Source: Nitrospira sp.
GTDB taxonomy: Bacteria > Nitrospirota > Nitrospiria > Nitrospirales > Nitrospiraceae
DNA length: 39,489 nucleotides
Reading direction: 5' to 3'
Assembly: GCA_015903995.1 (NCBI GenBank)
Contig: JABMDK010000002.1
Span: 1-39,489, forward strand
Both the position numbers and the translations under genes were made by a program. Shown one piece after another: positions 5,083 to 23,174 of the stretch (positions within the stretch are counted from its first letter, which is position 1; the number at the start of each line of letters is the position of its first letter). The notes beneath the pieces are model-generated. The model was not told where the DNA came from. It made no database searches and was given only the letters and a program-made list of their open reading frames with translations.

Positions 5083-6741
5083 CCACATGAGATCACCCAC
5101 CGCTCTCAACGCGCTCTTGAACTTGGTAAGCTTGGCAAAGAGGATGGCAGAGAAGGGGAGGGCCAGACCGAGCAGGAGCTGTGCAATGAAGAGCTCGCCC
5201 AGTTGGCTGTAGTCGGCCGGTGTTTGGACGGCGCCGGTGGCTTGGTCTCGGACTTCCCGCGTGACGACGAAGATTTCGTTGAGATATTTCGTCCCGAGTT
5301 GGCTGAACGAGAGGGCGAGATTGGTGAAGGATGCCATCACGGCAAAGAAGGTGGCTTTCAGATTGGCAGGCGCTGAATTCGCGATCCAAGCCAACATCGG
5401 GATCATGGAGATCTGAACCAGCGGCGATTCCAGTGCGGTGTCGACCAAGGCAATGAAACGCGCATCGATCACTCCTCCGCTGATCCTCGCGGTCCATTCA
5501 TGCAATCCATAGTAGAGACCCGTAATCGGAAGGGCGAGGATCGTTCCGACGATGGTTAAGAAACCGACCACGTACATGATGGATCGTTCAGCCATAAATC
5601 GCCGAAACACAAACATCCCCGCCAAGGCTACAACGCCACCGATCAAGGAGAGGACCGACAGAAACTGTTGATCGAACTTCAAGTGATCGATCATCCACCA
5701 GGTCGCACCTGGGCCGCTCCCGGGAATCGCACGTAACGAGAAGACCACGGCTGCGGTGCCGACCAAGGTGAGCCGTTTATCGTATTCCAGCTCCCGCATC
5801 AGTCTCGACATCAAAAACAGGACGATGGTCATCGAACCGGCGAACACGATCTCTTCACGGTACGGAAACCCACCCAGTCCCACGGTAAGAGTGAACAAGA
5901 CGAACGCCATGCTGCCGATGAGGATCCACCAATTTGGTTTCGTCGGTTCGCTGTCGGAATCCCGCGCGTCGACCATCTGCCGCGCCTCTTCCGGCGAGAA
6001 CCCTTCTTGAACAAGTCGTTGCCGCTGTCGGCGCTGCAGCCACCACGCCAGCCCGACTCCCACCACCGACACCACGGGAATCGCCATGGCCATCAGATAA
6101 ATTTGTTTGTAGAGGCGAACGAGCTCGGCTTGCGGCAGTCCCTCAGTTCCACTGAAGACATACACATTCACCAGCGCCACGAGGATTCCGCCTCCGACAA
6201 TCGCGACACGACCGAGCGTCTGCATGGTCGTATGCATGAGCTTCCGCGTCTGATCGTCGAACGGCTGCCCCTGATCGTCCACACGAGGAACGGCCTCGAC
6301 CGTCATCGCATCGGCGACGGCGTCTTGAATCACATATCCGATAGGGGCCAGCAACACACTGAGGACATACCAGACTTCCGCCGGCAAGATGGCCGTCATG
6401 GCCTCGCGGTCGCCGATCAACAGGGCCATGATGCCGAGGCTGACCGTCAGCAGCCCGGCCCCCGCCCCAACGAGCCAACTCTTCCATCGCCACAAGAGAT
6501 CAACCGTATGGCCGATCGGCATCTTCAGCGCCCAAGGAATCCCGGCCCAGAATCCAAGCGCGGCGAGGAATGCGGCAGAAAGGCCAAGGTAGTCCTTGAC
6601 GAAGAACGTCCCAACAATGCCGGTGAGTCCAGAAATACCGTAGGCGACATAGACCATGAGCGGCGGCAGATAGGACAACCGCATCTCACGGCCAAGCGAG
6701 AGAATGTTCCGATCGATCCACTGTATCACGGGTGTGAGCAT
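5071..6741 (-). CDS. BT1/folate-biopterin-type MFS transporter
   Basis: Multi-pass membrane protein with GTFFVKDYLGLSAAFLAALGFWAGIPWALKMPIGH...VIQDAVADAMTVE; start at MLTPVIQW avoids overlap with upstream gene. Confidence 0.75.
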   Translation of the reverse strand: MLTPVIQWIDRNILSLGREMRLSYLPPLMVYVAYGISGLTGIVGTFFVKDYLGLSAAFLAALGFWAGIPWALKMPIGHTVDLLWRWKSWLVGAGAGLLTVSLGIMALLIGDREAMTAILPAEVWYVLSVLLAPIGYVIQDAVADAMTVEAVPRVDDQGQPFDDQTRKLMHTTMQTLGRVAIVGGGILVALVNVYVFSGTEGLPQAELVRLYKQIYLMAMAIPVVSVVGVGLAWWLQRRQRQRLVQEGFSPEEARQMVDARDSDSEPTKPNWWILIGSMAFVLFTLTVGLGGFPYREEIVFAGSMTIVLFLMSRLMRELEYDKRLTLVGTAAVVFSLRAIPGSGPGATWWMIDHLKFDQQFLSVLSLIGGVVALAGMFVFRRFMAERSIMYVVGFLTIVGTILALPITGLYYGLHEWTARISGGVIDARFIALVDTALESPLVQISMIPMLAWIANSAPANLKATFFAVMASFTNLALSFSQLGTKYLNEIFVVTREVRDQATGAVQTPADYSQLGELFIAQLLLGLALPFSAILFAKLTKFKSALRAVGDLMWLWQ

Positions 6742-6743
6742 CG

Positions 6744-7625
6744 CTAGCGCAATGACCTGCCTCTCTCTCGACGCTCGACCAATGCCAGCAGATGGCTTCG
6801 CATGTCCGTCGAGGAGAGATGCACCCGATCGCCATGCCCGGCGAGGACCCATTCAAACCGGTAGTCGAGTAGTTTGCGAATGGAATCAACCATGGTCCAT
6901 TTCCTCCAGATCAAGCGCGTGGGGGCTTCCAGTGCCTGGGTATGGGGAGCCCACCAGAGATGATCGCCGGTGAAGAGAAACCGTTCTCGATAGAGCAGCG
7001 CCATGCTCCCGGCAGTATGGCCTGGTACAGGAATGATCTGGAACTCCGGCCCCACCAAAACCGTCTCTTCCCCATCGATGATGCGTTCCGCGTCCGGCGC
7101 GGCTTCCGCATCCGCCTGATGGATGATCCGCTTGGCGCCGAAAGATGCGGCATACTTGTCCGCATCGGCTACATCATCTTTGTGAGTCAGGAAGATATGG
7201 GCGATGCCTCCTCGCTGCTCAAAGACTTCAACCAGATGTTTGAGATATCGCGGGGAGTCGATGAGCCAATTCCCGTCCGGATGTTCAATGAAAAAACTAT
7301 TGGCTCCGAACGATTTCTCCGAATTGAACCCACAATAGCTCACACCGTCTTCAATACGTAGCGGGAAGCTCGCCATCGCCGCCTGTAACTGTGCCTTGTC
7401 GCCGTGCTCCGTACCGATTGACCCGACCGGACACGCAAGCAGTGCCTGATAGGCCTGATGCGTCTGCAGGTCATCCTGGGGCTGGCTATGGACTGCAGAA
7501 TAGTCACCGATCTCCTCGAAACACAGCGGTGCCAACTGGCGACAGGTGTCACAATTGATACAGGTTGCATCCACGTAGAAGTTACCCTGAGCGTTGGAAT
7601 CAAGTCGCTTGTTTCGGTCTGCCAT
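6744..7625 (-). CDS. Ferredoxin-domain/MBL-fold metallohydrolase fusion
   Basis: N-term YVDATCINCDTCRQLAPLCF (4Fe-4S-like) followed by MBL-like LTHKDDVADADKYAA and VPGHTAGSMALL...TGDHLWW. Confidence 0.85.
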   Translation of the reverse strand: MADRNKRLDSNAQGNFYVDATCINCDTCRQLAPLCFEEIGDYSAVHSQPQDDLQTHQAYQALLACPVGSIGTEHGDKAQLQAAMASFPLRIEDGVSYCGFNSEKSFGANSFFIEHPDGNWLIDSPRYLKHLVEVFEQRGGIAHIFLTHKDDVADADKYAASFGAKRIIHQADAEAAPDAERIIDGEETVLVGPEFQIIPVPGHTAGSMALLYRERFLFTGDHLWWAPHTQALEAPTRLIWRKWTMVDSIRKLLDYRFEWVLAGHGDRVHLSSTDMRSHLLALVERRERGRSLR

Positions 7626-7634
7626 CAGAGCACC

Positions 7635-8279
7635 TTAGAGCACCTTCATGGCCTGCTTTGCTCGATCTGCCGCACGCCATAGATACCAGGAGGCAACGGT
7701 CCGATAGGGCCTCCATCGCTCGCCATACTGTAACATCTGTTTGGGAGTCGGCATTGAGCGACGCCTGTAGACGATCCGGAATCCATTCCGTACCCAGAAG
7801 TCGTCAACAGGGAGTACATCCGGTCGGCCCAACTGGAAGATCAATAACATCTCGGCGGTCCATCGTCCGATGCCTCGAACCTCGACCAGCCGGTCAATGA
7901 TGGCCTCATCTTCTAATTGCTTCATCATGCGGTTCGTCGCGACTGTCCCATCGAGCGTTTTCGAAGCCAGATCACGAAGTGCCATGATTTTGGGTCGCGA
8001 AAATCCGGCATTCCTGATGGCGCTCAGGTTCATAGCAAGGAGATCCTCAGGACAAGGAAACCGCCTCCCTGGGAACAGTGCGATGAACCGCTTGAGGATA
8101 GTTTCCTCGGCTTTGTCATGGAGTTGCTGATAGGCAATGGCACAAGCCAGCGACTCGAACGGCGAGCGGCTGACCTTCGGCTTCAGGGTGAACGGACCGA
8201 TTTCTCCGATCAACCGACGCATGACCGGATCGATTTTGGCCAGATGACCGAGAGCAGGATAGTTAGCCGATAACGGCAT
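7635..8279 (-). CDS. DNA-3-methyladenine glycosylase 2-like (AlkA/HhH-GPD)
   Basis: [56 protein letters not shown]. Confidence 0.9.
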
Positions 8280-8646
8280 CGGCTTCGATTTCCACGAGCA
8301 TATCCGGATCGATCAGCCGCTTGACTTCGACCATGGTCGTGGCAGGTCTGATGGTTCCAAATACTTCTCCGTGTGCCCGTCCGACATCTTGCCACTGATC
8401 GATGTTGGCCATATAGATTCTGGTTCGTACCACATCGGCTAAGGACGCACCGGCCTGTTGAAGGGCCGCTTCGATCGTCCGCAACGTTTGAATCGTCTGC
8501 GCGTAGGGATCTCCTTTACCCACCAGGCCGGACGGGGTCATCGCCGTCGATCCGGAGACCGAGACATGGGCGCCGACTCGTACCGCTCTCGAATACCCGA
8601 TCTTGCCTTCCCACGGACCACCGGTTGAAATATTCTGTCTCGCCAT
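8263..8646 (-). CDS. RidA family protein
   Basis: Short YjgF/RidA-like sequence; [34 protein letters not shown]. Confidence 0.9.
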
Positions 8647-8662
8647 GTTGTCCACTATCCCG

Positions 8663-9394
8663 TTACATCACAATCCCGCCGCCGACCTGTATAGTCTGCC
8701 CTGTGAGCCACCGAGCCTCCTCGCTCACGATGAACGCCACCACATCGGCAATATCTTTCGGAACCCCGAGTCGTTTCATCGGCGTCAGCTGTATTCCGAT
8801 TTGCCGATACTCCTCCGTCATCATCCCGGTTTCGGTGAAACCCGGTGAAACCGTGTTCACCGTGATCCCCTTCGAAGCCAGTTCTTGCGCCAACCCTTTC
8901 GTGTATTGCTCAAGAGCTGCCTTGCTTCCAAGGTAGGCCGTGGCTCCGGGGAAGTGCAGATGCGTCCCCCCGGTTGAGATATTCACGATGCGCCCCCCGT
9001 CTTTGAGCACCTTCGCGGCTTCCTGCATGGCAAAGTACGGCCCTTTGGCATTCAGGGCGATGACACCATCGAAATCCTCTTCTGTCGTATCTTCAAGCGG
9101 CTTCGGCATGAACTTGCCCGCATTGTTCACCAGAATATCCAGCCTGTTGAATTGCTTCACGGTGTCGATCACCAGACGACGCGCCTCAGCCACCTGACTC
9201 ATGTCGGTTTGAACCGCGAGCGCCTTGCCCCCTTTGCCCTGAATCCCCACGACCACTTGTTGAGCCTTTTCCGAACTCTTCGAATAGTTCACTACGACGA
9301 TCGCACCATCTTCCGCCAATCGTTCTGCGATCGCTCGACCGATTCCGTTGGAAGCCCCGGTCACAATCGCCACTTTTCCGCTCAACGATTTCAT
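8663..9394 (-). CDS. SDR family oxidoreductase
   Basis: [50 protein letters not shown] upstream of MKSLSG. Confidence 0.92.
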
Positions 9395-9428
9395 CGACGA
9401 TGACTCCTCTTCTTGAACCAGACCAGTG

Positions 9429-10022
9429 CTATGGGATTGATACTCCCCACTGTCCCGCAAATGTCCATTCTCCGATCGGCCGACGAGTCCTTGGCCGCAG
9501 CTCGCGCTCGCGTAGCCGTTCCGGAAGAATATCCGAATTGCCTTGGTACCCGATCGCGATCATCGCCACCGGCTCGTAGCCTGCCGGGATGCGAAGATCG
9601 ACTCGCGCCTTCTCGATATCAAAACCCGCCATCTGATGGGCGACCAATCCGCTCGCCGCCGCTTGCAGGACAAGGTTTTCCGTCGCCAATCCCGTATCGT
9701 GAAAGGCGTGTCGATTCGACTTGCCGTCGTCCTCAAAATACATGCCGGCGACCGACAGCATCAGCACCGGCGCCCGGAACGCCCATGTTTTGTTTCCCTC
9801 CGCCAGACACTCAAACAGTCGATTCCACTCCGCTTCATGATCTTTGGTCGCCACGATGAATCGCCACGGCTGCTCGTTGTTCGATGAGGGCGCCCAACGG
9901 GCCGCCTCAAGCAGCGTCCGCAGTGCATCGGCATCCACCCGCCGTTCATCAAACGCACGGGGGCTCCAACGGCGGGCCAGCAACTCATGGATCGGAAAGT
10001 GAGTGTGCGCCGGCTGATCCAT
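9429..10022 (-). CDS. Nitroreductase family protein
   Basis: LLARRWSPRAFDERRVDADALRTLLEAARWAPSSNNEQPWRFIV. Confidence 0.92.
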   Translation of the reverse strand: MDQPAHTHFPIHELLARRWSPRAFDERRVDADALRTLLEAARWAPSSNNEQPWRFIVATKDHEAEWNRLFECLAEGNKTWAFRAPVLMLSVAGMYFEDDGKSNRHAFHDTGLATENLVLQAAASGLVAHQMAGFDIEKARVDLRIPAGYEPVAMIAIGYQGNSDILPERLRERELRPRTRRPIGEWTFAGQWGVSIP

Positions 10023-10027
10023 AGACG

Positions 10028-11440
10028 CTATCCTTTTTTCACATCTTCGGCTGATTGCATATCAGGAGACCAGCCGCCTCCGAGTGCTTTGTACAGTTGG
10101 ACGACCGATGCCAACAGCAACCGACGGGTGCTGGTCAACGCCAGCTCGGCCTCGAACAGATTTCTTCGCGCCACCAGAACATCGAGATAGTTCGCCAGCC
10201 CTCCCCTATAGCGGAGTTCGGCCAATTTCAGCGCAGACTGCAACGCCGCGACTTGTTGTTGTTGTGCTTCGCTCTGAATCCGTGCCGTCCGTACCGCAAC
10301 GAGCGCATCCTCCACTTCGCGAAAGGCCGTCAACACCGTCTGTTGGTACTGTGCCAGCGCTTGTTTATTTTGTGCTTCCACGGCTTCCTGCTGAAAACCC
10401 AACACTTGGGCATTCAACAGCGGAGTCGCAATGGCGGCACTAAACACGCCGAATGAGGAAGGATCGCTGAACAGTAAGGACAGTTCGGGATGCGCCACCC
10501 CCAGCAATCCGGTCAAGGTGATCCTTGGAAACCGTTCCGCTTTGGCCGCACCGATACGGGCGGTGGCGGCTGCCAACTGTTGTTCCGCCACCAACAAATC
10601 AGGACGCCGCTGCAACAACTCTGACGGCAGGCCGGCTGGTACCGCCGGCGGTATGACTTGCTCGTCCAGGGAGCGGCCTCGCGTCACGGCAAAGGGTTTG
10701 CGGCCGAGCAGCACGCTCAAATGATTCTCGGCTTGAACCATATACCGTTCGAGTTCGGCCGTGCGGGCCGCCGCATTGGCGCGCTCCGCCTCGAACTGAT
10801 CGGCATCCAACTTCGAGGTCATCCCTTGGCGCAACCGTGCCTGGGCAATCCGCACCGATTCCTCCCAGGATTGCAGCGTCCGTTTCGCGATATCGAGCTG
10901 CAGATCGAACTGAAGCAGGTTGAAGTAGGCTTCCGCAACGGCGCTGACCAATTGAATCGTGACCGCACGACGATTCTCTTCCTTCGACAACAAATCGGCG
11001 CGCGCCGCCTCATTGGTTCGCCTGACCCGCCCCCAGAGATCCACTTCCCACGCCAGATTGCCCAGCAAGTAATAGTTAAACGGGCTGGCAAATCCGGGAA
11101 AGAGAAAGTTCGCCTTGCGGCCGGCCGGCAGGCTTGAGGAAATCGAAATCCCCGGCATGTAATCCGACCTCGCGATCAAGGCCCGTGCCCGAAATTCTTC
11201 GACGGTCGCGACCGTCCGTTGGAGGTCCCGATTCTCCGCAAGCGCCGTTCGGATCAGCTGCTGCAACTGCTCATCGCGCAAGAGCTCCCACCAGGCCAGA
11301 TTGGCCAGCGACGGCATATCCGACTGACCGTCCGCCATGCGAAACCGATCTTCCCCATCGGTCTGTGGGCGCTTGTAATCAGGTCCCACCGTACAGGACA
11401 GGAGAAGCACGGCGAGCCCGATGATGACGATCGTGCGCAT
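10028..11440 (-). CDS. RND efflux outer membrane factor (NodT/OprM type)
   Basis: Lipoprotein signal LLLSCTVGPDYKRP, repeated OMF motifs, RRPDLLVAEQQLAAATARIGAAKAERFP. Confidence 0.93.
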   Translation of the reverse strand: MRTIVIIGLAVLLLSCTVGPDYKRPQTDGEDRFRMADGQSDMPSLANLAWWELLRDEQLQQLIRTALAENRDLQRTVATVEEFRARALIARSDYMPGISISSSLPAGRKANFLFPGFASPFNYYLLGNLAWEVDLWGRVRRTNEAARADLLSKEENRRAVTIQLVSAVAEAYFNLLQFDLQLDIAKRTLQSWEESVRIAQARLRQGMTSKLDADQFEAERANAAARTAELERYMVQAENHLSVLLGRKPFAVTRGRSLDEQVIPPAVPAGLPSELLQRRPDLLVAEQQLAAATARIGAAKAERFPRITLTGLLGVAHPELSLLFSDPSSFGVFSAAIATPLLNAQVLGFQQEAVEAQNKQALAQYQQTVLTAFREVEDALVAVRTARIQSEAQQQQVAALQSALKLAELRYRGGLANYLDVLVARRNLFEAELALTSTRRLLLASVVQLYKALGGGWSPDMQSAEDVKKG

Positions 11441-11441
11441 G

Positions 11442-14400
11442 TTAGGACTTATCCTCCACGGAAAGGGTGGACACGGCGGGCTGAGTCTCGCGTGCCGCTG
11501 ATTGTTCCTTACGCCTCGTCAGCTTTCTCAGCAACACAAAAAACAACGGCACAAAAAAGATTGCCAAGAAGGTTGCCGCCAACATCCCGCCCATGACACC
11601 TGTCCCGATCGACTGACGGCTTGACGCACCAGCCCCCCTGGCCACCACCAACGGCACCATGCCGAAAATAAAGGCCATCGACGTCATGATGATCGGCCGA
11701 AAACGCAGTCGAGCGGCTTCGATCGCGGCTTCGATCAAGGGACGCCCTGCTTCGTATCGGGTATTGGCGAACTCGACGATCAGAATGGCATTTTTGGCGG
11801 TCAAGCCGATCAATGTCACCAATCCGATCTGGAAATAGATATCGTTCTCGAAACCACGTACCCACACGGCGGTCAGCGCGCCGAAAATTCCGAATGGAAC
11901 GGCCAGAATCACCGCGAAGGGAACCACCCAACTCTCGAACTGTGCCGCCAGCACAAGGAAGACCATCAGCAGGCCGACGATGAAAACCAGGTTGGACTGG
12001 CCGCTCATTCGTCGCTCCTGAAACGAAAGGCCGCTCCAATCGATCCCATACCCTTGTGGAACCAACACTTCTTTCGCCACACGCTCCAGCGCTTCGAGCG
12101 CTTGTCCTGAGCTGTAACCCGGCGCGGCCGCCCCCAACACCAGCGCCGTATTATACCCGTTGAAGTGCTTCACCGGATCCGGCCCGCTCTGATACTCCGC
12201 CGTCACCACAGTGTCGAGCGGAATCATATTGGTCCCCTGCGCATTCTGAGCCCGCAAATAGATTTTTGACAAGTCTTGCGGCGTCGACCGAAACTCTGCT
12301 TCCGCCTCGGTCTGCACGTGATAGACCCGACCGAACTTCACGAAGTCGTTGATATAGAAATTCCCGAAATAGGCCTGCAACGTGTCAAAGATATCCGAGA
12401 TGGGGACGCCTAAGGCTTTCGCCCGTTCCCGATTCACATGGGCATAGACCCGCGGCGAGGACACACGGAAATTCGTCCCCACCCGCCCGATCGCCGGTTC
12501 CTGTTGCACCCGTTCCACAAACTGCTGCGCGACGCCGGCAAACCGCTTGAAATCTTCGCCGGTCGGATCTTGCAACTGCGCGGAGAATCCCCCGGCCGCG
12601 CCGACCCCCTCAATCGCCGGCGCATTGAATGCCAACAAGAGCGCTTCAGGAATCTTCGCAAACTCAGCGTACGCCGCACCGACCATCGCCTTCACATGGT
12701 TCTGCGGCTCCGGCCGCTCATCCCACGGGATCAGCGGCACGAACATCGTGGCAGAGTTCGGTCCTCTGGTGCCGAAGACGAAGTTTTGACCGGACAGGGC
12801 ATCCGTCGAGTTGACCGCCGGATTAGCCTGAAATACCCTCTCAATTCTTTCAAGCACCGCATCCGTCCGCTGCTTCGAGGCACCATCCGGCAGCTGCGCG
12901 ACCACGATGAAATACCCTTGGTCTTCCTCAGGCACGAAACTCTTCGGCAGCGTCTGGAATAGGCTGAAAGAGACGGCGAGAAGCACCCCGAAAACCGCCA
13001 TCACCCGTATCGGTCTGGCTAAAATCGCACCAACCGCATTGGTGTAGCCACGCTGCGTGTGCCGAAACAGCCGGTCAAACAGCACCCAGAATGCGGCCCG
13101 TTCTCCGTGTTGCGATCTCAAGACAACGGCGCAGAGCGCCGGGCTGAGGGTCAGCGCCACGAATCCTGACACCGTCACCGAGATGGCAATCGTGGCGGCA
13201 AACTGTTTATAGAGTGCTCCGGTGATCCCGCCGACAAACCCGACAGGCGCGAAGACCGAGACCAGGACCAACACGATCGCGATGATGGGTGCCGTCACTT
13301 CGCTCATCGCCCGTTTGGCCGCAGCTTTGGCCGACAACCGATCTTCACGCATGTGCCGCTCGACATTTTCCACCACCACGATCGCGTCGTCGACCACGAT
13401 CCCGATCGCGAGCACCATGCCGAACAAGGTAATGGTATTGATCGAGAATCCCAATGCGTAGAGCCCCATGAACGTGCCGATCAGCGACACCGGCACGGCA
13501 ACCATCGGAATGACGGTCGCACGCCAGCTCTCAAGGAACAGATAGACGACGAGCACCACCAAAATCATCGCCTCCGCCAACGTCTTCACCACTTCCCTGA
13601 TCGAGACTTCGATGAAGTGGGTGGTGTCGTAGGGAACGTCGTACGACATCCCCGGAGGAAAATTCTTGGCCAGTTCGTCCATCTTGGCCCGCGCGCCTCG
13701 GACCATTTCAAGCGCGTTCGCACCAGGAGACAAAAACGTGAGAATGAATGTGGTGGGCTTGCTGTTCCAGCGAGCCTCAAGGGCATAGGACTGCGCACCC
13801 ACTTCGATCCTGGCCACATCCTTCAAGCGGACCAAGGAACCATCCGGAAGGGCACGCACGATCAACTCCTCGAATTCCTTGACCTCCGTCAGCCGTCCCT
13901 TCGCGATGATCGGGATCGTTAATTCTGTCCCCTTCAATGCCGGTTCTCTCCCGATCGTCCCGGCCGGATAATCACGATTCTGCTCTCGGATGATCGCGGC
14001 GATATCGCTCGGCACCAGCCCCAACTTCGCCATATGCAACGGATTGAGAATGATCCGCATGCTGTAACTTGATTGTCCGAACACCCAGGCATCTCCGACA
14101 CCCTTGACCCGTTTGAGATCATCGACCACCCGTCGTGTGGCGTAATTCGAGAGGAACACGGCATCGTGTTGAGGGTCGGTCGACTTCAGCACAAACACCG
14201 CGAGTAAGTTGCGGGTGGCCTTTTTGACGGACACGCCCTGCCGGATGACTTCCGACGGCAACTGGGGTTCCGCAAGCTTTTCACGGTTCTGGGTTTGGAC
14301 TTGGGCGATATCCGGATTGGTGCCGACCTCAAACGTCAGCGTGATGGAGACGTGCCCGTCGTTACTGCTGGTGGATTCAAAATATAAGAGGTTATCAATG

Positions 14401-14615
14401 CCGGGGAGCATCACCTCGATCGGCCTGGCCACCGCCTCGGCGGCGACTTCCGCACTGGCGCCAGGATAATCCGCTTCAATCTGCACGACCGGGGGGTTCA
14501 TCTCCGGGAACTGCGCAACCGGAAGGAACTGCAGCGCAAGCAGCCCCATCACCACAATGATGATGGACACCACTGACGCAAGAATCGGACGGTCTATGAA
14601 GGCATGCAACGTCAT
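11442..14615 (-). CDS. HAE1-type RND multidrug efflux permease (AcrB/MexB family)
   Basis: 1057 aa; FIDRPILASVVSIIIVVMGLLALQFLPVAQFPEMNPPVVQIEADYPGASAE, GIVVDDAIVVVENVERHM. Confidence 0.96.
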   Translation of the reverse strand: MTLHAFIDRPILASVVSIIIVVMGLLALQFLPVAQFPEMNPPVVQIEADYPGASAEVAAEAVARPIEVMLPGIDNLLYFESTSSNDGHVSITLTFEVGTNPDIAQVQTQNREKLAEPQLPSEVIRQGVSVKKATRNLLAVFVLKSTDPQHDAVFLSNYATRRVVDDLKRVKGVGDAWVFGQSSYSMRIILNPLHMAKLGLVPSDIAAIIREQNRDYPAGTIGREPALKGTELTIPIIAKGRLTEVKEFEELIVRALPDGSLVRLKDVARIEVGAQSYALEARWNSKPTTFILTFLSPGANALEMVRGARAKMDELAKNFPPGMSYDVPYDTTHFIEVSIREVVKTLAEAMILVVLVVYLFLESWRATVIPMVAVPVSLIGTFMGLYALGFSINTITLFGMVLAIGIVVDDAIVVVENVERHMREDRLSAKAAAKRAMSEVTAPIIAIVLVLVSVFAPVGFVGGITGALYKQFAATIAISVTVSGFVALTLSPALCAVVLRSQHGERAAFWVLFDRLFRHTQRGYTNAVGAILARPIRVMAVFGVLLAVSFSLFQTLPKSFVPEEDQGYFIVVAQLPDGASKQRTDAVLERIERVFQANPAVNSTDALSGQNFVFGTRGPNSATMFVPLIPWDERPEPQNHVKAMVGAAYAEFAKIPEALLLAFNAPAIEGVGAAGGFSAQLQDPTGEDFKRFAGVAQQFVERVQQEPAIGRVGTNFRVSSPRVYAHVNRERAKALGVPISDIFDTLQAYFGNFYINDFVKFGRVYHVQTEAEAEFRSTPQDLSKIYLRAQNAQGTNMIPLDTVVTAEYQSGPDPVKHFNGYNTALVLGAAAPGYSSGQALEALERVAKEVLVPQGYGIDWSGLSFQERRMSGQSNLVFIVGLLMVFLVLAAQFESWVVPFAVILAVPFGIFGALTAVWVRGFENDIYFQIGLVTLIGLTAKNAILIVEFANTRYEAGRPLIEAAIEAARLRFRPIIMTSMAFIFGMVPLVVARGAGASSRQSIGTGVMGGMLAATFLAIFFVPLFFVLLRKLTRRKEQSAARETQPAVSTLSVEDKS

Positions 14616-14628
14616 CAGCGATGTTTCT

Positions 14629-15815
14629 TCAGGATTGAGGCGAGGCGGGAGCTGACTCTGCAGCAGGCACCTTCGTCCGACTCCAGGGAACAGCCTTCAC
14701 CGGCGCGCCGGGACCGATCTTCATCATCCCATTCACGACCACACGATCGCCTTGTTTCAGACCTGTATCAATAAGCCACTGCTCCCCTTTCCAGTCGGAC
14801 GCGGCGACGCCGCGAATTTGGACCTTCTCGTCCTGATCAACGACAAAGACGAAAGGCCCCTGAGGCCCCTGCAGCACGGCTCGCTGAGGAATAAGGATGG
14901 CGTCGGTTTTTGTATCGCCGGTGAATCGAACCTTCACAAATTGCCCCGGCAGCAAGGTGCGCTTCGGATTCGGAAAGGTAATACGTGTCTGCCGCGAGCT
15001 GGTTTCCGTTCGCAGTCCCGGCTCCAGCAGATCGAGCACCCCTTCATGGGGATAGACCGTGCCGTCCATGAGCGTGAGACGACCTCGTAATTGATAGACC
15101 CCCGGATGGGTGATTCGCTTCGCCTCAATATCCCGTCGCCGCTTGAGAATGAATGTCTCGGGGACATTCACCACCACATACATCGGATCGACGCGATGAA
15201 TCGTCGTCAGAAGATCGGTCTGCGCAGACACCAGCCGCCCTTCATAGTAGCGGCTGCGCTCAATCAGCCCGGTGATGGGGGCCGTAATGAGCGTGTTATC
15301 CAGATCGAACTGGGCCTTGATGAGGTCAGCGCGAGCCCCTTCCACCGCCGCGTTCGCCGCAAGCTCTTCAGCCACGGCATCATCCACATCTTTTTGGCTC
15401 ACCGCCTGCTCGGCAAGCAACGGCTTGACCCGTGCAAGATTCTGTTTGGCTTGAACGACGCGGGCCTCCGCTTGGGCAATCTTGGCCCTCGCACTCGCTG
15501 CCGCCGCCTTGAACGGAACGGGGTCGATCTGATAGAGGCGATCACCTTTCTTCACGTCGCGACCCTCTGGGTAGAGAACCGCCTTCAACAGTCCCGTCAC
15601 TTGAGAACGGATCTCCACGGGACGGGACGCTTCGGCCTGGCCGATAAACTCCGGTTCATCGGGAACGGTCTGTGTCTCAACCGTAACGACTTCCACCTGC
15701 GACACTTCTTGTGGCGGCATAGACCCGGCCTCCTGTCTGCAGGCAGCCGATGCCCCGAGCGCCACAAAACCAGGCACACCATGATCCATTGCATCGCCTG
15801 ATGATCCTTCAGCAT
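14629..15815 (-). CDS. RND efflux periplasmic adaptor (MFP); apparent 1-nt frameshift in signal peptide near 15766-15769
   Basis: ORF 14629..15789 has an adaptor body; upstream ATG at 15815 has an AAGGTAGG ribosome-binding site and encodes a signal-peptide N-terminus in another frame; see findings. Confidence 0.85.
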
Positions 15816-15955: not shown

Positions 15956-16297
15956 TCAGAACTCATCTTCCGTCATGCCCGGTGAACGCTTGTCACAGTT
16001 CTTCTTTGCAGGATCAGATCGATCCATCCCTGTGATCTCTTCAACAACACATTTCGTCAAACAACCGGAGGCCGTTAGACTCGCTCCCTGTTGCCACAGA
16101 CGAGCCAAGAGCATCTTGCCTTCGGCATCGATGAATGTCACGCCGGTCAGGTCGATCATCACGCGCTGAGGCTGCTGCGCGGACACCTTCCGCCAATACC
16201 CGCTGAGTTCCTGGACCCAGGGACCCATCAGTCGTCCCTCAAGTCGAAGCAACACAGAGTCTGGTTCAGCTCCTGGCTGTTCAGTAATCCTCAACAT
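15956..16297 (-). CDS. STAS domain-containing protein
   Basis: VLLRLEGRLMGPWVQELSGYW...QRVMIDLTGVTFIDAEGKMLLARLWQQGA. Confidence 0.75.
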   Translation of the reverse strand: MLRITEQPGAEPDSVLLRLEGRLMGPWVQELSGYWRKVSAQQPQRVMIDLTGVTFIDAEGKMLLARLWQQGASLTASGCLTKCVVEEITGMDRSDPAKKNCDKRSPGMTEDEF

Positions 16298-16418
16298 AAC
16301 TGAGGTCGCCGAAAGGCTTCGTCCTTAATCTGGTCACCGCGTTCAGCTTACTCTGATGGAATGCCACTCTCGTCGCCATACCCAATCCTCCGTGATCAAA
16401 GAGGCTACCGCTTGATTT

Positions 16419-16434
16419 TGCAACTCATGTTCCC
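16419..16434 (-). promoter_or_regulatory. Putative sigma54 (-24/-12) promoter upstream of STAS/RND operon
   Basis: Minus strand GGGAACATGAGTTGCA; GG-N10-GC core; 12/14 identity to the second promoter core (GCAACTYAYGTTCC on + strand). Confidence 0.6.
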
Positions 16435-16530
16435 GCTGGTCTTGACCAAGACAGCATTACCGAAACTATTGAATTGTCTGAGAAGAATCGTCGCGACCCG
16501 AGAACGTATCGCTGGAGAGTTTTGTAAGAT

Positions 16531-16548
16531 GTGCCGAGCCCACGGCAC
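16531..16548 (-). promoter_or_regulatory. Activator dyad, promoter-proximal copy (module A)
   Basis: + strand GTGCCGA-gccc-ACGGCAC, 6/7 arm match. Confidence 0.65.
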
Positions 16549-16549
16549 G

Positions 16550-16567
16550 GTGCCGAAAGATCGGCAC
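16550..16567 (-). promoter_or_regulatory. Activator dyad, promoter-distal copy (module A)
   Basis: + strand GTGCCGA-aaga-TCGGCAC, perfect 7-bp arms. Confidence 0.7.
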
Positions 16568-16646
16568 AAGCGCCGATGAGATCATTCGAGAAACTCCTCA
16601 TATGAGGCGCCAGCAAGAGACGGGCGAACATAGATAGACGCGGGGC

Positions 16647-18185
16647 TTACGAGACGCGGGGAATTCCGAGCTTCTGCATTTTTGACTGAAGGGTGGTTCG
16701 CTTGATTCCTAACCGAGCCGCAGCACCAGCTGGGCCACCGATGACCCCTCGTGCTTCATGTAGGGCGCGCACGATTTGCTCGCGCTCGGCTGCTTCAAGC
16801 GTTGAGCTTGAGAGGGGAACGGAACGATCATGTGCCTGGAGTTCACTCATCGGCACCTGTAGATCAGGCCCCTGCGTGAGGATAACGGAACGCTCCACCA
16901 AATTCTCCAGTTCACGGATATTACCCGGCCACGCATACCGAGAGAGCACATCGAGCGTTGTGGCAGGGACCCTCTGGATATTCTTCTTCATGCGCAGGGC
17001 ATAGTGCTGCGTAAAATACCGGACGAGAATAGGAATATCGTCTCGACGCTCACGGAGCGGCGGCATGGTAACGGGAAAGACGTTCAGACGGTAGTACAAG
17101 TCGCTTCGAAACTGTTTCTGCTCCACCGACTCCCTGAGATCCCGATTCGTGGCGGCGATCAAGCGCACGTTCACTCGGATCGTTTTGGTGCCGCCGAGTC
17201 GCTCGAATTCCTGCTCCTGGAGTACACGAAGTAGCTTCGATTGCAGTTCCGGCGGAATTTCGCCCACTTCATCCAGAAAGATGGTGCCGCGATCGGCCAA
17301 CTCAAACCGCCCGGCTTTCTGCGAGATTGCCCCAGTGAAGGCTCCTCGCTCATGCCCGAACAACTCACTCTCCAACAGTCCGGTTGGAATCGCCGCACAG
17401 TTCAGTTTGACGAATGTGCGCTCACGTCGGCCGCTCAGTCGATGAATTGCCCGAGCGATGAGTTCCTTGCCGGTCCCGGTTTCTCCTTGAATCAACACGG
17501 TCGAATCGGTCGGAGCCACGACTTCGACTTGCTTCAGCACCTTTTTGAGAGGGGTGCTGTCGCCGATGATGTCGTCGAACCCATGCTCAGTCCGAAGCTC
17601 CTCTTCGAGATAGAGCTTCTCCTTGGCCAACTTATCTTTGAGCTCGGCGATCTGCTGAAAGGCCAAGGCATTTTCAACGGCGACCGCGACTTGTTGAGCC
17701 ACTTGTTTCAGGAACTCCACATCCGCATCGCTATAGGCCTCTCTTTGCAGGCTTAAGAATCCCATGGCGCCCAACCGACCTCGCGCTGTGGTCAGCGGAA
17801 CAAAGCAAAATGACTCCGTCCCATCTTCCCTCATTTGGCCGATAACCTTTGACCAACGGCGCTCCTCCGTTAACTTCGGCACAAGGAGCGGCTGCTGCTG
17901 CTGCCAGACCAACCCGGCGGGGCAATCATCGATGGGGACTTCATGGCCCCCCACGAGATCCGCCGGCACATTGGCCTGAATGGTATGGAGGCGCATCATT
18001 TTCTTGATGGGGTCATGTAGGGAGAGATCGACGAAATTCACCTGCACGACCCGAGGAAGCCGGTGTGCGAGGTCGCGAAAGAGCTGATCGAGGTCCCGTT
18101 GCGCGGAAATTGCCTGTGCAACCTCGAGGAGCGCTTGGTAGCGCTCCGCAAGGTCCCCGCAGGGAGAAATGCCCTGTCGATCCAT
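16647..18185 (-). CDS. Sigma54-interacting transcriptional regulator: GAF + AAA+ + Fis-type HTH
   Basis: GETGTGKELIARAIH Walker A, ESELFGHERGAFTGA, FLDEVGEIP, C-term GAAARLGIKRTTLQSKMQKLGI; start MDRQGISPCGDLAERYQALLEVA. Confidence 0.93.
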   Translation of the reverse strand: MDRQGISPCGDLAERYQALLEVAQAISAQRDLDQLFRDLAHRLPRVVQVNFVDLSLHDPIKKMMRLHTIQANVPADLVGGHEVPIDDCPAGLVWQQQQPLLVPKLTEERRWSKVIGQMREDGTESFCFVPLTTARGRLGAMGFLSLQREAYSDADVEFLKQVAQQVAVAVENALAFQQIAELKDKLAKEKLYLEEELRTEHGFDDIIGDSTPLKKVLKQVEVVAPTDSTVLIQGETGTGKELIARAIHRLSGRRERTFVKLNCAAIPTGLLESELFGHERGAFTGAISQKAGRFELADRGTIFLDEVGEIPPELQSKLLRVLQEQEFERLGGTKTIRVNVRLIAATNRDLRESVEQKQFRSDLYYRLNVFPVTMPPLRERRDDIPILVRYFTQHYALRMKKNIQRVPATTLDVLSRYAWPGNIRELENLVERSVILTQGPDLQVPMSELQAHDRSVPLSSSTLEAAEREQIVRALHEARGVIGGPAGAAARLGIKRTTLQSKMQKLGIPRVS

Positions 18186-18270
18186 AGACCGGCAGTATGG
18201 ACTATCTACTGACACCGGCTCAAGAGCCACGCCAGACACGCACGCGGTGTCTATGACGCTCCCGACGTCT

Positions 18271-18507
18271 TCAGAGCGTCTGGTGAGTCCCGTCACAGAA
18301 CGGCGGCGTCTTCGTGTGCTTGCACTGGCACAAGGCGACGTCTTTCTTGACATCCACGGTGAACTCGACCGGCTCGAACCCGGTTCCTTCGTGCGCCCCG
18401 TCGCAAAACGGTTGGTCCCTCGATCGTCCACAGGAACACCAGTAGTAGGTACCCGGCTCCAGCGAAATCACCGACGGCTCTTTGGCTGCAATACGTGGCT
18501 GCCCCAT
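18271..18507 (-). CDS. CDGSH iron-sulfur domain protein (two motifs)
   Basis: CSCGRSRDQPFCDGAH and CQCKHTKTPPFCDGTH. Confidence 0.95.
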   Translation of the reverse strand: MGQPRIAAKEPSVISLEPGTYYWCSCGRSRDQPFCDGAHEGTGFEPVEFTVDVKKDVALCQCKHTKTPPFCDGTHQTL

Positions 18508-18528
18508 AAACGTTCCTCCTCTTTTTGA

Positions 18529-18975
18529 TTACAAATACAGCGGCTTGATCGGCGACACCACCGCCGACGGGTCATTTTTCCACACCGACTCGTCCGCATC
18601 GACATAGAACTCGACTTCATTGCCGTCCGGATCTTTGAGATAGAGACTCTGGCTGACTGTATGATCGCTCATCCCGTGGATCGGGATCCCTGCTTCCTCT
18701 AACTCTCGTTTTGCCTGACGCAATTCATCGAGGCTATCCCCGACTTTGATGCCGATGTGATAGAGCCCTCGACGGGGCCCACTCGGCGGCCCCGGCACAT
18801 CGCCGACCTGAATCAGCAACAACTCATGATGTGTTCGCCCGGAGGTCAGCGCAGCGGCCGCCCCATTGAAGATCCGCCCCACCTCCGTAAACCCCAACAG
18901 GTCTCGATAGAAACCGAGCGATCGCTCCAGATCTTTCACATAAAACACGACATGACCAAGGTAGTGTGCTTTCAT
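18529..18975 (-). CDS. VOC family protein (glyoxalase/dioxygenase-like)
   Basis: LGHVVFYVKDLERSLGFYRDLLGF...YLKDPDGNEVEFYVD. Confidence 0.9.
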   Translation of the reverse strand: MKAHYLGHVVFYVKDLERSLGFYRDLLGFTEVGRIFNGAAAALTSGRTHHELLLIQVGDVPGPPSGPRRGLYHIGIKVGDSLDELRQAKRELEEAGIPIHGMSDHTVSQSLYLKDPDGNEVEFYVDADESVWKNDPSAVVSPIKPLYL

Positions 18976-19397
18976 CTGACTCGCCCCTTGTTGGACCTCG
19001 ACTGCACCAGCAATGCCCGGACCGCTGCGTGTGCCAATACCACATCGGGGCTCCGTTGCAATGCCTCGTGATACTGCCGGCTGAATCCCTCCCCCTCTTC
19101 CGTCGGTACCATGAGGGCCTGCACAGAGGCCAGCAGCGCCGGGATTTCCTCGCTGGATGCAGCCTCATCTGATTCACTGAGTTCATCAAGCTTGGCGATT
19201 GATTGGGAGAGGGGACGCAACCAAGCAAACCAAGCGTCGTTCAACACCAGCTGCAAGAACGCACCATTGGATGGAACCCGTCCATGCACACGTTCATAGG
19301 CCACGCGCTCGTCGTCGAGCAAGGCCTTGTGCAGGCGAAGGAGAGCAGAAAAGAGATTGTCCAGAGAGGTATTCCTATTTCGTTGCTCCCGCATGGC
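18972..19397 (-). CDS. Hypothetical protein, translationally coupled to VOC gene
   Basis: ATGA overlap with the next gene; start chosen at MREQRNRNTSLDNLF. Confidence 0.6.
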   Translation of the reverse strand, partial: AMREQRNRNTSLDNLFSALLRLHKALLDDERVAYERVHGRVPSNGAFLQLVLNDAWFAWLRPLSQSIAKLDELSESDEAASSEEIPALLASVQALMVPTEEGEGFSRQYHEALQRSPDVVLAHAAVRALLVQSRSNKGRVR

Positions 19398-19517
19398 CAT
19401 ACCTTGAAGGTTCCTAGTCCGTTTTCCCTGCATCATAGCAAAACCGTCTCTGGATGATCTTGCCTTGAGAGATGTCGCCGAACAGATCAGTGAACCACTG
19501 TTGTGGAATGGTCGGAC

Positions 19518-19952
19518 TCATGACCGCTTCTCCTTCGGCGGTTTGTCGGAAAATGTTATCCCGGCTTTCTGCACCTCCTGATAGGGAAGAAGCCAGACCA
19601 ACGATTCATCGCTCAGGTCACCGACCTGAATACGATTGCCCCAAGGATCACGAAAATCACAGCGGAAGTCAGGATGGAGCTTCAGCTTATACTTCTTCGT
19701 CAGCTTCTTACGGACTTCTTTGATCTGTTCTGCATCACGGACCATCAGTCCAAAATGCTTCGTGCGATCCGGCTGAAGCTGGTCTACTTCAAAAATGGCC
19801 ATGAACTGATGTTCCCCAAGCTTGCACCAGACCGCTCCTTCCCCACCACGTAACATCTTCAACCCAAAGACGTCCTGATAGAACTTCGCCGCCTTCGTGG
19901 CATCGGTGACTTCGATCACGACATGGTTACAGCCATAGACTTGAACGGCCAT
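19518..19952 (-). CDS. VOC family protein
   Basis: YGCNHVVIEVTDATKAAKFYQDVFGLKML...DFRDPWGNRIQVGDLS. Confidence 0.88.
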   Translation of the reverse strand: MAVQVYGCNHVVIEVTDATKAAKFYQDVFGLKMLRGGEGAVWCKLGEHQFMAIFEVDQLQPDRTKHFGLMVRDAEQIKEVRKKLTKKYKLKLHPDFRCDFRDPWGNRIQVGDLSDESLVWLLPYQEVQKAGITFSDKPPKEKRS

Positions 19953-20614
19953 TACCCACCTACCTTTCCCGCAGCCGAGCCGGTTACACTCCCTCTGAAG
20001 ACCGCCACTAACTGCTCAGGAGGCTGTGCCCCGGAGAGCGCGTAGGCTCCGTTGATCACAAAATACGGAACCCCTCGAATGCCCAACCGATGACCGGCAG
20101 CTTCCTCCACCTTCACCTCTTCGACGCCCTCATCGCCCGCCAGGAAGGTTACGGTGATTGCTCGATCAAGCCCCTCATCAGCAGCGGCTTGGGACAATGT
20201 GTCGATACTCCCAATATCTCCACCCTCCAGGAAATACTGGCGAAAGAGCCTCTCGACCATCTCATCCTGTTTCCCCTGATGCCCCGCCCACCAGATGAGG
20301 CGATGCGCGGCAAATGTGTTGGGCGTGCGAGCAATGCTCCCAAAGGCGAAATGGATGCCTTCCTCGGCACCTGCTGTTGAGACGTGATCATAGATCGCTT
20401 GAGCAGCGGCAGGGCTGCCGAACTTCGCGTCAAGGTACTGTCGTCGATCCATCCCCTCGCGTGGCATGGTCGGATTCAATTGAAAGGGCCGCCATCTGAC
20501 GTTCACAGGAACACCGTCCCACGCCTTGAGTGCCCGTTCCAGGCGCCGCTTGCCCACATAGCACCAGGGACAGATCTCAGAATAGACATCGACTGTCAGC
20601 GCTTGCTCATTCAT
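19952..20614 (-). CDS. DsbA family oxidoreductase (FrnE-like)
   Basis: VDVYSEICPWCYVGKRRLERAL and GIRGVPYFVINGAYALSGAQ; TAATG overlap with pirin gene. Confidence 0.93.
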   Translation of the reverse strand: MNEQALTVDVYSEICPWCYVGKRRLERALKAWDGVPVNVRWRPFQLNPTMPREGMDRRQYLDAKFGSPAAAQAIYDHVSTAGAEEGIHFAFGSIARTPNTFAAHRLIWWAGHQGKQDEMVERLFRQYFLEGGDIGSIDTLSQAAADEGLDRAITVTFLAGDEGVEEVKVEEAAGHRLGIRGVPYFVINGAYALSGAQPPEQLVAVFRGSVTGSAAGKVGG

Positions 20615-21495
20615 TACAGGTGGCCCATCTTGCCCGCTTGATAATCATTCACGGCTTGCACAAGTTCGGCTTTGGCATTCATGACGAACGGACCATACCG
20701 AGCAATCGGCTCCTCGATCGGTTGACCGCTCAAGATCAAAAGCCGGCTGTCTCCGCGGGCTTCAATAGCCACAGACGACCCATTCCGCATACACACAAAT
20801 AACTCTGCCTCTCCTGCGTCGCGTGAGCCATTCACCGACACCAGGCCTTGCACCACGAAGACCGACGTATTGTACCCATCCGGCAGATGCAACTCCGCAC
20901 GGCGGTTGGCAGCCAACTCCAGATCATAGAGTTCGACCGGTGTCACCGTATGGGCCGGCCCCTTCTGTCCCTGAATTGTTCCTGCAATCACACGCAGTCG
21001 GCCTGCTCCACCTTCAAGTTCAACCTTTGGAATATCAACGTTCAGAATCGTCTGGTAACGAGGCGCCGACATCTTCTGCGTGCGCGGCAGATTCACCCAG
21101 AGTTGGATAGCCTGAAAGGTTCCGCCTTGCTGAGCCCAATTCTTCTCATGCAACTCTTCGTGTACGACTCCGGACGCCGCCGTCATCCATTGCACATCGC
21201 CCGGCCCGATGACACCGGCATTGCCGGCCGAATCTCTGTGAGCGACCGCCCCCTGGTACATAATCGTGACGGTTTCAAACCCGCGATGCGGATGCTCACC
21301 GACACCACGTGGGTGAGCAATCGGTTCAAAATACTGTGGTCCGGCATAATCCAGCAAAAGAAACGGGCTGACCTCTCGATCGAGATCGTTGCTCGGGAAC
21401 AGGTTCCGCACGGGGAACCCGTCTCCCACCATATGGGCCGATCCTGGTTGATAGATCCCTGCCACTTCTTTGACAACAGCCGTCCCTGTAGCCAT
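20614..21495 (-). CDS. Pirin family protein
   Basis: FPSNDLDREVSPFLLLDYAGPQYFEPIAHPRGVGEHPHRGFETVTIMYQGAVAHRDSAGN. Confidence 0.95.
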   Translation of the reverse strand: MATGTAVVKEVAGIYQPGSAHMVGDGFPVRNLFPSNDLDREVSPFLLLDYAGPQYFEPIAHPRGVGEHPHRGFETVTIMYQGAVAHRDSAGNAGVIGPGDVQWMTAASGVVHEELHEKNWAQQGGTFQAIQLWVNLPRTQKMSAPRYQTILNVDIPKVELEGGAGRLRVIAGTIQGQKGPAHTVTPVELYDLELAANRRAELHLPDGYNTSVFVVQGLVSVNGSRDAGEAELFVCMRNGSSVAIEARGDSRLLILSGQPIEEPIARYGPFVMNAKAELVQAVNDYQAGKMGHL

Positions 21496-21506
21496 GTGGT
21501 CCTCCT

Positions 21507-22364
21507 TCACACCATCGTTCGTAGCGCGTCTTCCAGCGTGACCGTGCCTCGCACCAACTTCGCCGGATGCTCGTACCCGATCGCGCCGTTTGAGAACGCG
21601 CGGTACATTTCCTCAAACAATCTCGCCGCCTCGTCCGAAAATCCAAACGATTTGAATGTCGGGACCACGGCACTGAGTGGCGCATGTTGGGCCATCACCG
21701 CTTTCCCAAGAATCCGACTGAGTGCAGACGCCGCTTGATCCGGGCTGTACTCTTCCGGCCCCGCCATTTCCGCGATCTGCTTCCCATGACCACCAGCCAT
21801 CAATTGTTCCGCCCCAATTCTGCCGATGTCCTTGGTTGAAATCATCGGTATCTTCGCCTGAGGTGCCATGAAGGTTGGAAGAACACCCTGCGCCTTGGCC
21901 GCACCGATCACTGGGGCCCAATTGTCCATAAAGTAACAGGGGCGAAGAATGGTCAGCCGCTTGGCATGACAGCCAAGTGCATACTCTCCATAACTCGCCG
22001 CTCGAATCGGGCCGGTCCCGCCGTGAATATGCCCCCCGATCGATGACAGGAACACAACATGTTCGACTCCGCTCTTTTGGACGGCTTCCGCCGCGCGATC
22101 CATTCGTGTTCGCTGATCCGCCAACCAGGCCTCAGCCCCGTAATTCGGCGGTACCAATAGATAGACCCCTTTCGCTCCTTTGAAGGCCTCGGCCATGGCC
22201 GATACATCGTCGAGCGACGCCACGGCAACCTCCGCTCCTTTCGCCTTCCAGCCGGCCCCCTTATCGACCGAACGGACGACAACCCTGACCGGCTGTTTCT
22301 TACCGAGCAAGGTTTCCACGACTGACGACCCTGTATTCCCTGTAGCCCCTACGACAACAAACAT
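21507..22364 (-). CDS. NmrA/NAD(P)H-binding family protein
   Basis: MFVVVGATGNTGSSVVETLL; AGGAGG upstream of ATG at 22364. Confidence 0.92.
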   Translation of the reverse strand: MFVVVGATGNTGSSVVETLLGKKQPVRVVVRSVDKGAGWKAKGAEVAVASLDDVSAMAEAFKGAKGVYLLVPPNYGAEAWLADQRTRMDRAAEAVQKSGVEHVVFLSSIGGHIHGGTGPIRAASYGEYALGCHAKRLTILRPCYFMDNWAPVIGAAKAQGVLPTFMAPQAKIPMISTKDIGRIGAEQLMAGGHGKQIAEMAGPEEYSPDQAASALSRILGKAVMAQHAPLSAVVPTFKSFGFSDEAARLFEEMYRAFSNGAIGYEHPAKLVRGTVTLEDALRTMV

Positions 22365-22494
22365 AATGAGTCCTCCTCTTCCTGACACAACGCACAAGCG
22401 TTCTGTAATCGCCTCTGCATAATGACATCACGGCTTTTGTCTATACAGCACTTCGCACCGCCAGACCAACTCTCATTACCACACATTCCAGCAT

Positions 22495-22510
22495 GGCAAC
22501 TTACGTTCCA
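22495..22510 (-). promoter_or_regulatory. Putative sigma54 (-24/-12) promoter upstream of NmrA-pirin-FrnE-VOC operon
   Basis: Minus strand TGGAACGTAAGTTGCC; close to TGGCACG-N4-TTGC. Confidence 0.7.
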
Positions 22511-22605
22511 GACAACAGGAACAGACCTCTTTTCGCAATCTACTTGAAATGAGAAGGGATTCGCTTCGCAGAACGCAGAATTGTCAAACGTCCCGCAGGA
22601 AAGGA

Positions 22606-22623
22606 GTGCCGAATCAATGGCAC
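22606..22623 (-). promoter_or_regulatory. Activator dyad, promoter-proximal copy (module B)
   Basis: + strand GTGCCGA-atca-ATGGCAC, 5/7 arm match. Confidence 0.55.
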
Positions 22624-22624
22624 C

Positions 22625-22642
22625 GTGCCGAAGGATCGGCTC
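22625..22642 (-). promoter_or_regulatory. Activator dyad, promoter-distal copy (module B)
   Basis: + strand GTGCCGA-agga-TCGGCTC, 6/7 arm match. Confidence 0.6.
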
Positions 22643-22682: not shown

Positions 22683-23174
22683 ATGACTGTTCTACTCATT
22701 CGCATCGGGCTTCGAACCGTCATCCTCATCCTTTCAGGGGTGATCGGTCTTCACGCTGTTCTCGCAGCGGATGAGCTCTCCCTGCCCTCCCGAGTCAGTG
22801 CAGTGAAAATTTCAGTCGCCTCCTATGAACGAATTCCCATCGCGACCATCCTGGCGCATCCGGATCGCTATCAGATGAAGGAAATACGAATCACCGGAAC
22901 CGTCACAGCGACTCAGACGGAAACCATCCCGAATCGGATGATCTGTGGAAGCCCCCATGAACGAACGACGCTCATGGTTGAGGATGACAGCGGACAGATC
23001 GAGATCATTGATCACGGTGCATGCGGGAAGAATGTCGGGGCCCTCAAAGCACCGATGCTGAAGACAGGCCAACCGATCGATCTCTTGGTGCGAATCATGA
23101 TCCCCACCAACCTGGGCTCTTCCGGTTCATCGGTGGAAGCCACTATCCGCTATATCGCCCCGGCACGAGACTAG
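22683..23174 (+). CDS. Exported hypothetical protein, possibly OB-fold
   Basis: N-terminal signal-like segment; IATILAHPDRYQMKEIRITGTVTATQTE...TLMVEDDSGQIEI resembles OB-fold proteins; ribosome-binding site TGGAGG. Confidence 0.65.
   Translation: MTVLLIRIGLRTVILILSGVIGLHAVLAADELSLPSRVSAVKISVASYERIPIATILAHPDRYQMKEIRITGTVTATQTETIPNRMICGSPHERTTLMVEDDSGQIEIIDHGACGKNVGALKAPMLKTGQPIDLLVRIMIPTNLGSSGSSVEATIRYIAPARD

Follow-up and report, generated by a model that had tools for sequence, protein, structure and literature searches.

The formate hydrogenlyase activator FhlA has two GAF domains, followed by an AAA+ domain with the GAFTGA motif and a Fis-type helix-turn-helix (HTH). The same GAF-AAA+-Fis order is found in an enhancer-binding protein (EBP) encoded on the minus strand at 16647-18185 of a 39,489-nucleotide stretch of Nitrospira sp. 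(assembly GCA_015903995.1, contig JABMDK010000002.1, positions 1 to 39,489; hereafter, the window). The block of genes ending in this EBP is flanked by two tandem-dyad modules, each placed upstream of a predicted sigma54 promoter, and our analysis indicates that these modules are very probably enhancers for the EBP encoded between them, through which the two adjoining operons would be switched on together by sigma54. FhlA is the best curated-family match of the window EBP (NF011958, E=2e-160), but the score of 535.6 bits is below the family cut-off of 830. Unlike FhlA, the window EBP has a single GAF domain, and formate hydrogenlyase genes are absent among its putative targets. Furthermore, the upstream activating sequences (UAS) of FhlA are described as inverted repeats of the TGT/ACA type (PMC6615313), whereas the half-site of the window EBP appears to be TGCCGA. 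A second described system, the NorR regulator of nitric oxide (NO) detoxification, has in common with the window EBP the GAF-AAA+-Fis layout and stress-type targets. Nonetheless, the window EBP scores 369 bits against a NorR cut-off of 476 (NF003451), and its putative targets comprise efflux and redox proteins instead of NO reductase.

At the level of regulatory networks, the closest precedents are the regulons of one-component EBPs in Desulfovibrio, which usually comprise one to four operons (PMC4641369), and those mapped likewise by comparative genomics in the Clostridiales (PMC6615313). In both cases the predicted regulons are local, span 1-4 operons and show a conserved UAS together with a -24/-12 promoter, as here, but they differ from the one in the window in phylum, motif and targets; neither TGCCGA dyads nor STAS-RND operons are mentioned in the text of these two papers as searched. 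The presumed target genes also have well-known counterparts, since one of the operons shares with the AcrB/MexB-type tripartite efflux operons of the resistance-nodulation-division (RND) superfamily the order of adaptor, permease and outer-membrane channel. It differs from them in being headed by a gene for a small STAS-fold protein and in lying under a predicted sigma54 promoter. RND operons are usually controlled by local TetR or MarR repressors. Our searches of open-access papers turned up no description of the TGCCGA motif or of any sigma54 regulon in Nitrospira. Since relatives keep the modules beside the same activator gene, the locus looks like a real, undescribed sigma54 regulon of nitrite-oxidising Nitrospira that governs stress enzymes and an efflux pump of the multidrug type. 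For a group of nitrite oxidisers that is hard to culture, it offers a regulon with a defined activator, 37-bp enhancers and promoters, and its conserved neighbours predict export and detoxification of a small molecule.

Tandem dyads, predicted promoters and putative activator in the window

The two modules have the same structure, with two 18-bp dyads of the TGCCGA-N4-TCGGCA type separated by a 1-bp spacer. Read directly, module 1 (16531-16567) is GTGCCGAGCCCACGGCAC-G-GTGCCGAAAGATCGGCAC and module 2 (22606-22642) is GTGCCGAATCAATGGCAC-C-GTGCCGAAGGATCGGCTC, and the tandem dyads reported at both positions in the initial annotation proved exact to the base on rereading. Both modules are oriented along the minus strand, and module 1 lies on the downstream side of the EBP gene, 79 bp from its stop codon. 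When up to three mismatches are allowed, the tandem pattern occurs at only 2 places in the 3,554,236-base genome, both of them within the window, and its reversed control yields 0 matches over the same genome. Single dyads with at most two mismatches show no genome-wide enrichment (29 versus 25 for the control), which places the signal in the dyad pair. One near-perfect single dyad (C58:193584) was considered as a third site and rejected, as it sits within an ftsA-like coding sequence.

Downstream of each module, the minus strand carries a predicted sigma54 -24/-12 promoter with a GG-N10-GC core. The first of these, P1 (16419-16434, GGGAACATGAGTTGCA), is separated by 96 bp from module 1, has its predicted start site near 16408 and points into the operon encoding the STAS-fold protein, a HlyD-type adaptor, the RND permease and an outer membrane factor (STAS-HlyD-RND-OMF). 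The second, P2 (22495-22510, TGGAACGTAAGTTGCC), has a gap of 95 bp to module 2 and a predicted start site near 22484, and points into the operon that runs from an NmrA-like gene to the EBP gene. Both elements and both gaps had been claimed beforehand, and they are present as described. Promoter elements behind the modules follow the form TGGAAC-N5-TTGC, with a GGGAAC variant at P1. The textbook -24 element is TGGCAY; across the loci that we compared, the Nitrospira element reads TGGAAY and the examples from Acidobacteria and Deltaproteobacteria are mostly TGGCA, so that the TGGAAY form is possibly a lineage-specific preference of RpoN. RpoN itself is encoded in the genome (contig C46; Sigma54_DBD above cut-off, RpoN box RRTVAKYR). 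The same contig (C46:297000-313000) contains two near-identical blocks of PilM-like, RapZ-like, HPF-like and RpoN genes some 8 kb apart, and hence two rpoN genes, which more likely stem from strains merged during assembly than from a genuine duplication.

The regulator that the initial annotation placed between the modules is borne out by domain searches, which identify GAF, Sigma54_activat (PF00158, E=5.6e-74), AAA lid and HTH_8 domains, the last of them corresponding to a C-terminal Fis-type HTH (PF02954, 27 bits for a cut-off of 22). The Walker A and B motifs (GETGTGKE at 234 and LDEVGE at 304) and the GAFTGA motif (residue 281) are intact, and the recognition helix reads KRTTLQSKM. FhlA, NifA and NorR are the nearest curated families, but every score falls under its cut-off and the protein is therefore best described as an FhlA-like one-component EBP, not as FhlA.

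Conservation and spacing of the modules

A survey of 147 Nitrospiraceae genomes, with up to 20 kb fetched around each module match, revealed the module in 36 genomes, as compared with 0 for the control pattern. Nearly all the modules precede either STAS-HlyD-RND-OMF (or other genes downstream of the EBP orthologue) or the NmrA-pirin-FrnE-VOC operon, and in relatives they usually lie just downstream of the orthologous EBP gene. Several genomes have both modules, as in the window (e.g. L056, L061, L062 and L063). The dyads and -24/-12 elements upstream of orthologous operons are thus conserved, and the co-occurrence of modules with orthologues of the regulator, proposed in the initial annotation as a check, is also observed. 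An EBP orthologue with at least 74% identity is present in 26 of the 36 module genomes (30 after a targeted look) versus 21 of the 111 genomes without module. Among the module genomes that lack a close orthologue, contig ends account for G143 and G134, and in G115 the module sits on a 3.9-kb contig. The arrangement of the locus is not rigid. In L052 and L063 the EBP and STAS genes are several kilobases apart and the module remains with STAS, while G025 and G035 keep the NmrA module despite an EBP gene located about 15-17 kb away, which argues for action in trans.

The distance between module and promoter provides a second line of evidence. For a set of 102 non-redundant tandem modules (at most four mismatches) drawn from all fetched loci, a strong sigma54 site located 20-150 bp from the module was found on the promoter side in 94 cases and on the opposite side in 1, an asymmetry with a Fisher P of about 5e-47, uncorrected for relatedness among the loci. 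The gaps cluster in two bands, at 92-100 and 104-110 bp, with none at 101-103 bp and four outliers (70, 84, 85 and 114). The bands are some 11 bp apart, or about one helical turn, which fits an enhancer that must keep its rotational face, and these spacing classes provide natural evidence that this face has to stay turned towards the promoter. On a composite position weight matrix of module and promoter, real loci score up to 85.5 and the best reversed sequence scores 5.4, although most of the scored loci also trained the matrix. One composite match (G012:C1:3000801) was discarded because of its poor half-sites and the lack of an adjoining operon or EBP gene.

Probable recognition of the dyads and competing explanations

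To relate the modules to the protein that reads them, EBPs were sorted by the variable residue X of the helix KRTTL-X-SKM, and non-redundant TG-N-CGA arrays upstream of neighbouring sigma54 sites were counted at a threshold of 20 matches out of 24, which none of 376 reversed-sequence pseudo-sites approached beyond 17. A helix with Q is accompanied by C in the half-site in 70 arrays and by A in 6, while a helix with T is accompanied by A in 16 and by C in 0 (P = 2e-13, Fisher); in other words, TGCCGA is the partner of KRTTLQSKM, and TGACGA that of KRTTLTSK. The layout of the arrays follows suit (6,2,4 for the T type; 4,3,4 or 4,2,4 for the others). Two paralogues of the EBP in the genome of the window differ from it in helix and in tandem half-site, with HPNTLRSRM beside CCACGA (C124:17000-28000) and KPTTLEARM beside TCCCAA (C57:181000-192000). 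Both arrays lie next to a sigma54 site and probably mark further EBP regulons. The co-variation of helix and half-site, together with the differing half-sites of the paralogues, points to the window EBP as the likeliest protein to bind the dyads, and the TGCCGA and TGACGA arrays matched to Q and T provide a simple model for changes of specificity in Fis-type EBPs.

Several observations weigh against this assignment, or against the extent of the proposed regulon. Many independent co-switches of helix and site had been suspected, but a tree built without the HTH shows only one clear Q/T switch among the rows having both states, so that the Fisher P of 2e-13 overstates independence. In addition, 5-6 Q-helix EBPs, some of them in the clade of the window itself, adjoin TGACGA arrays, indicating that the base preference is not absolute. 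In these loci (L187, L088, L082, L176, L090 and L182) the Q-helix EBP is followed by a TGACGA array of the 6,2,4 layout and a sigma54 site, and L187 and L088 have a TGCCGA module as well. No T-type paralogue that might account for such cases was found in G035, G046, G138 or G131, where the best match is not T-type; the Q helix may tolerate A, or the TGACGA arrays may be relics. One genome (G059) has a close EBP orthologue, but the region examined there contains no module that can be recognised. Lastly, we infer the NmrA-to-EBP polycistron and the extents of the operons solely from the spacing of the genes.

One competing explanation is that the dyads are operators for some other dimeric regulator of the same operons, such as a TetR-type repressor. 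Tandem 18-bp dyads would suit a double-dimer repressor just as well, and in one relative (L045) a TetR-like gene appears, judging by its sequence, to form part of the downstream operon. Yet across genera and phyla no regulator other than the EBP is repeatedly encoded next to the modules, the dyads lie 92-110 bp upstream of the promoter, in the working position of a sigma54 activator, and the EBP helix varies in concert with the half-site base, all of which renders this explanation improbable. Slightly less probable still is that promoters and enhancers are real but respond to a paralogue of the EBP encoded elsewhere in the genome. EBP-like proteins do number at least 17 in this genome at E<1e-60, and the TGACGA arrays flanking the Q-helix EBPs of some relatives are typical of T-helix paralogues; however, the two next closest paralogues differ in both helix and adjoining half-sites, and TGCCGA modules track the EBP orthologues from genome to genome. 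The least credible reading, which we regard as a very slim prospect, takes the dyads for RNA hairpins acting as terminators or processing signals. It draws on the perfect inverted repeats found 79 bp past the EBP stop codon and on one arm of module 2 that scored as terminator-like on the plus strand, but terminator-like calls in the region amount to 4 versus 6.5 expected, module 2 follows no minus-strand gene, and the fixed distance to the -24/-12 site would be left unexplained. Scans of the region for terminators and sigma70 promoters gave results at or below chance, and both readings were set aside.

Taken together, conservation, spacing and co-variation of helix and half-site support the earlier proposal that the EBP acts on the dyads and controls both operons. 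According to this activator model, two EBP dimers would occupy the two 18-bp dyads of a module, with KRTTLQSKM reading TGCCGA, and the AAA+ ring, presumably loaded as a hexamer, would assemble some 95 bp upstream of the RpoN promoter. The GAF domain would sense a signal and gate activation, after which looping over these 95 bp would allow the GAFTGA loop to remodel the closed complex of RNA polymerase and sigma54 at P1 and P2. Transcription from P2 would cover NmrA-pirin-FrnE-VOC-hyp-VOC-CDGSH-EBP, amounting to positive autoregulation, and P1 would drive STAS-HlyD-RND-OMF and probably also the redox genes that follow, so that the operon of the EBP and the pump operon would be induced together.

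Predicted target operons, STAS protein and distant relatives

All the genes of the two predicted operons are on the minus strand. Behind P2, an NmrA/NAD(P)-binding protein (21507-22364) is followed by products that domain searches identify as a pirin (20614-21495), a DsbA-family, FrnE-like protein (19952-20614) and two proteins of the VOC/glyoxalase superfamily (19518-19952 and 18529-18975). Between the last two lies a hypothetical protein without Pfam match (18972-19436), which is kept in the operon in relatives, and ahead of the EBP there is a CDGSH-type protein of 78 aa (18271-18507), recognised by its two CxC...CDG motifs and without NCBIfam match. Behind P1, the small STAS-fold protein (15956-16297) precedes the RND periplasmic adaptor (14629-15789, TIGR01730), the AcrB-type RND multidrug efflux permease (11442-14615, NF000282 and TIGR00915 above cut-off) and an outer-membrane efflux channel of the NodT/OprM type (10028-11440, TIGR01845). 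Further downstream and co-directional, genes for a nitroreductase, a short-chain dehydrogenase (SDR), an HhH-GPD protein, a ferredoxin-MBL protein and a BT1 family member (5071-10022) are kept with the pump in relatives. The combination of NmrA, pirin, DsbA/FrnE-like, VOC and CDGSH proteins with an RND pump, a nitroreductase and an SDR suggests a defence against a reactive small molecule, such as a toxic compound of electrophilic, nitro or quinone-like nature. Divergent from module 2, a small plus-strand gene (22683-23174) without Pfam or NCBIfam match is retained in most of the relatives that have an NmrA module, with identities of 55-79%.

The STAS-fold protein falls under the Pfam STAS cut-offs. 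The AlphaFold model (pLDDT 86.5) confirms a SpoIIAA-like STAS fold at the level of predicted structure, with SpoIIAA and other anti-sigma antagonists as its best PDB matches in Foldseek (E about 1e-5, TM about 0.65). Anti-anti-sigma factors carry a phosphorylatable Ser in a DSSG motif. This classical residue is absent from the window protein, in which the site reads IDAEG, and the site is variable in its relatives (alignment A1).

A single scan of GTDB genomes identified 80 EBP relatives, among them proteins at 51-60% identity from Acidobacteria, Deltaproteobacteria, Gemmataceae and a Sumerlaeia metagenome-assembled genome. Many of the distant relatives have a longer N-terminus with repeated GAF-like stretches, and many are associated with TGCCGA-N4-TCGGCA pairs (spacer 0 or 1) that lie about as far from a sigma54 site as the modules of the window do. 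EBPs with multiple GAF domains, the same half-sites and a sigma54 site occur in Nitrospira, Candidatus Manganitrophus and some Acidobacteria and Deltaproteobacteria. The number of GAF copies varies among orthologues (L042-L045, L066-L078) and the downstream AAA+ and HTH domains stay the same, with one N-terminal GAF in the clade of the window and repeated GAF-like stretches in other genera. Most EBP loci that were fetched contain a gene of the STAS-like family, and in several Acidobacteria (L129, L133, L147 and L148) the gene directly after the EBP encodes a small STAS-fold protein resembling that of the window. A bolder extension, which we advance tentatively and consider rather unlikely as a whole, is that the EBP, its tandem enhancer of the TGCCGA type and the small STAS protein might form an ancient cross-phylum sigma54 signalling unit (Nitrospirota, Acidobacteriota, Deltaproteobacteria and perhaps also Planctomycetes) that is often linked to RND pumps. 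Within such a unit, the STAS protein, devoid of the classical Ser, would act back on the EBP, and one residue of the recognition helix would set one base of the enhancer. In the genome of the window only two members of the STAS family were found, and the second, a weak match (E=0.009), is encoded some 1.6 kb downstream of a paralogue of the EBP. The family as a whole comprises proteins of about 100 aa encoded beside FhlA-like EBPs in several phyla, with a conserved, cysteine-containing GC(L/M/C)T motif.

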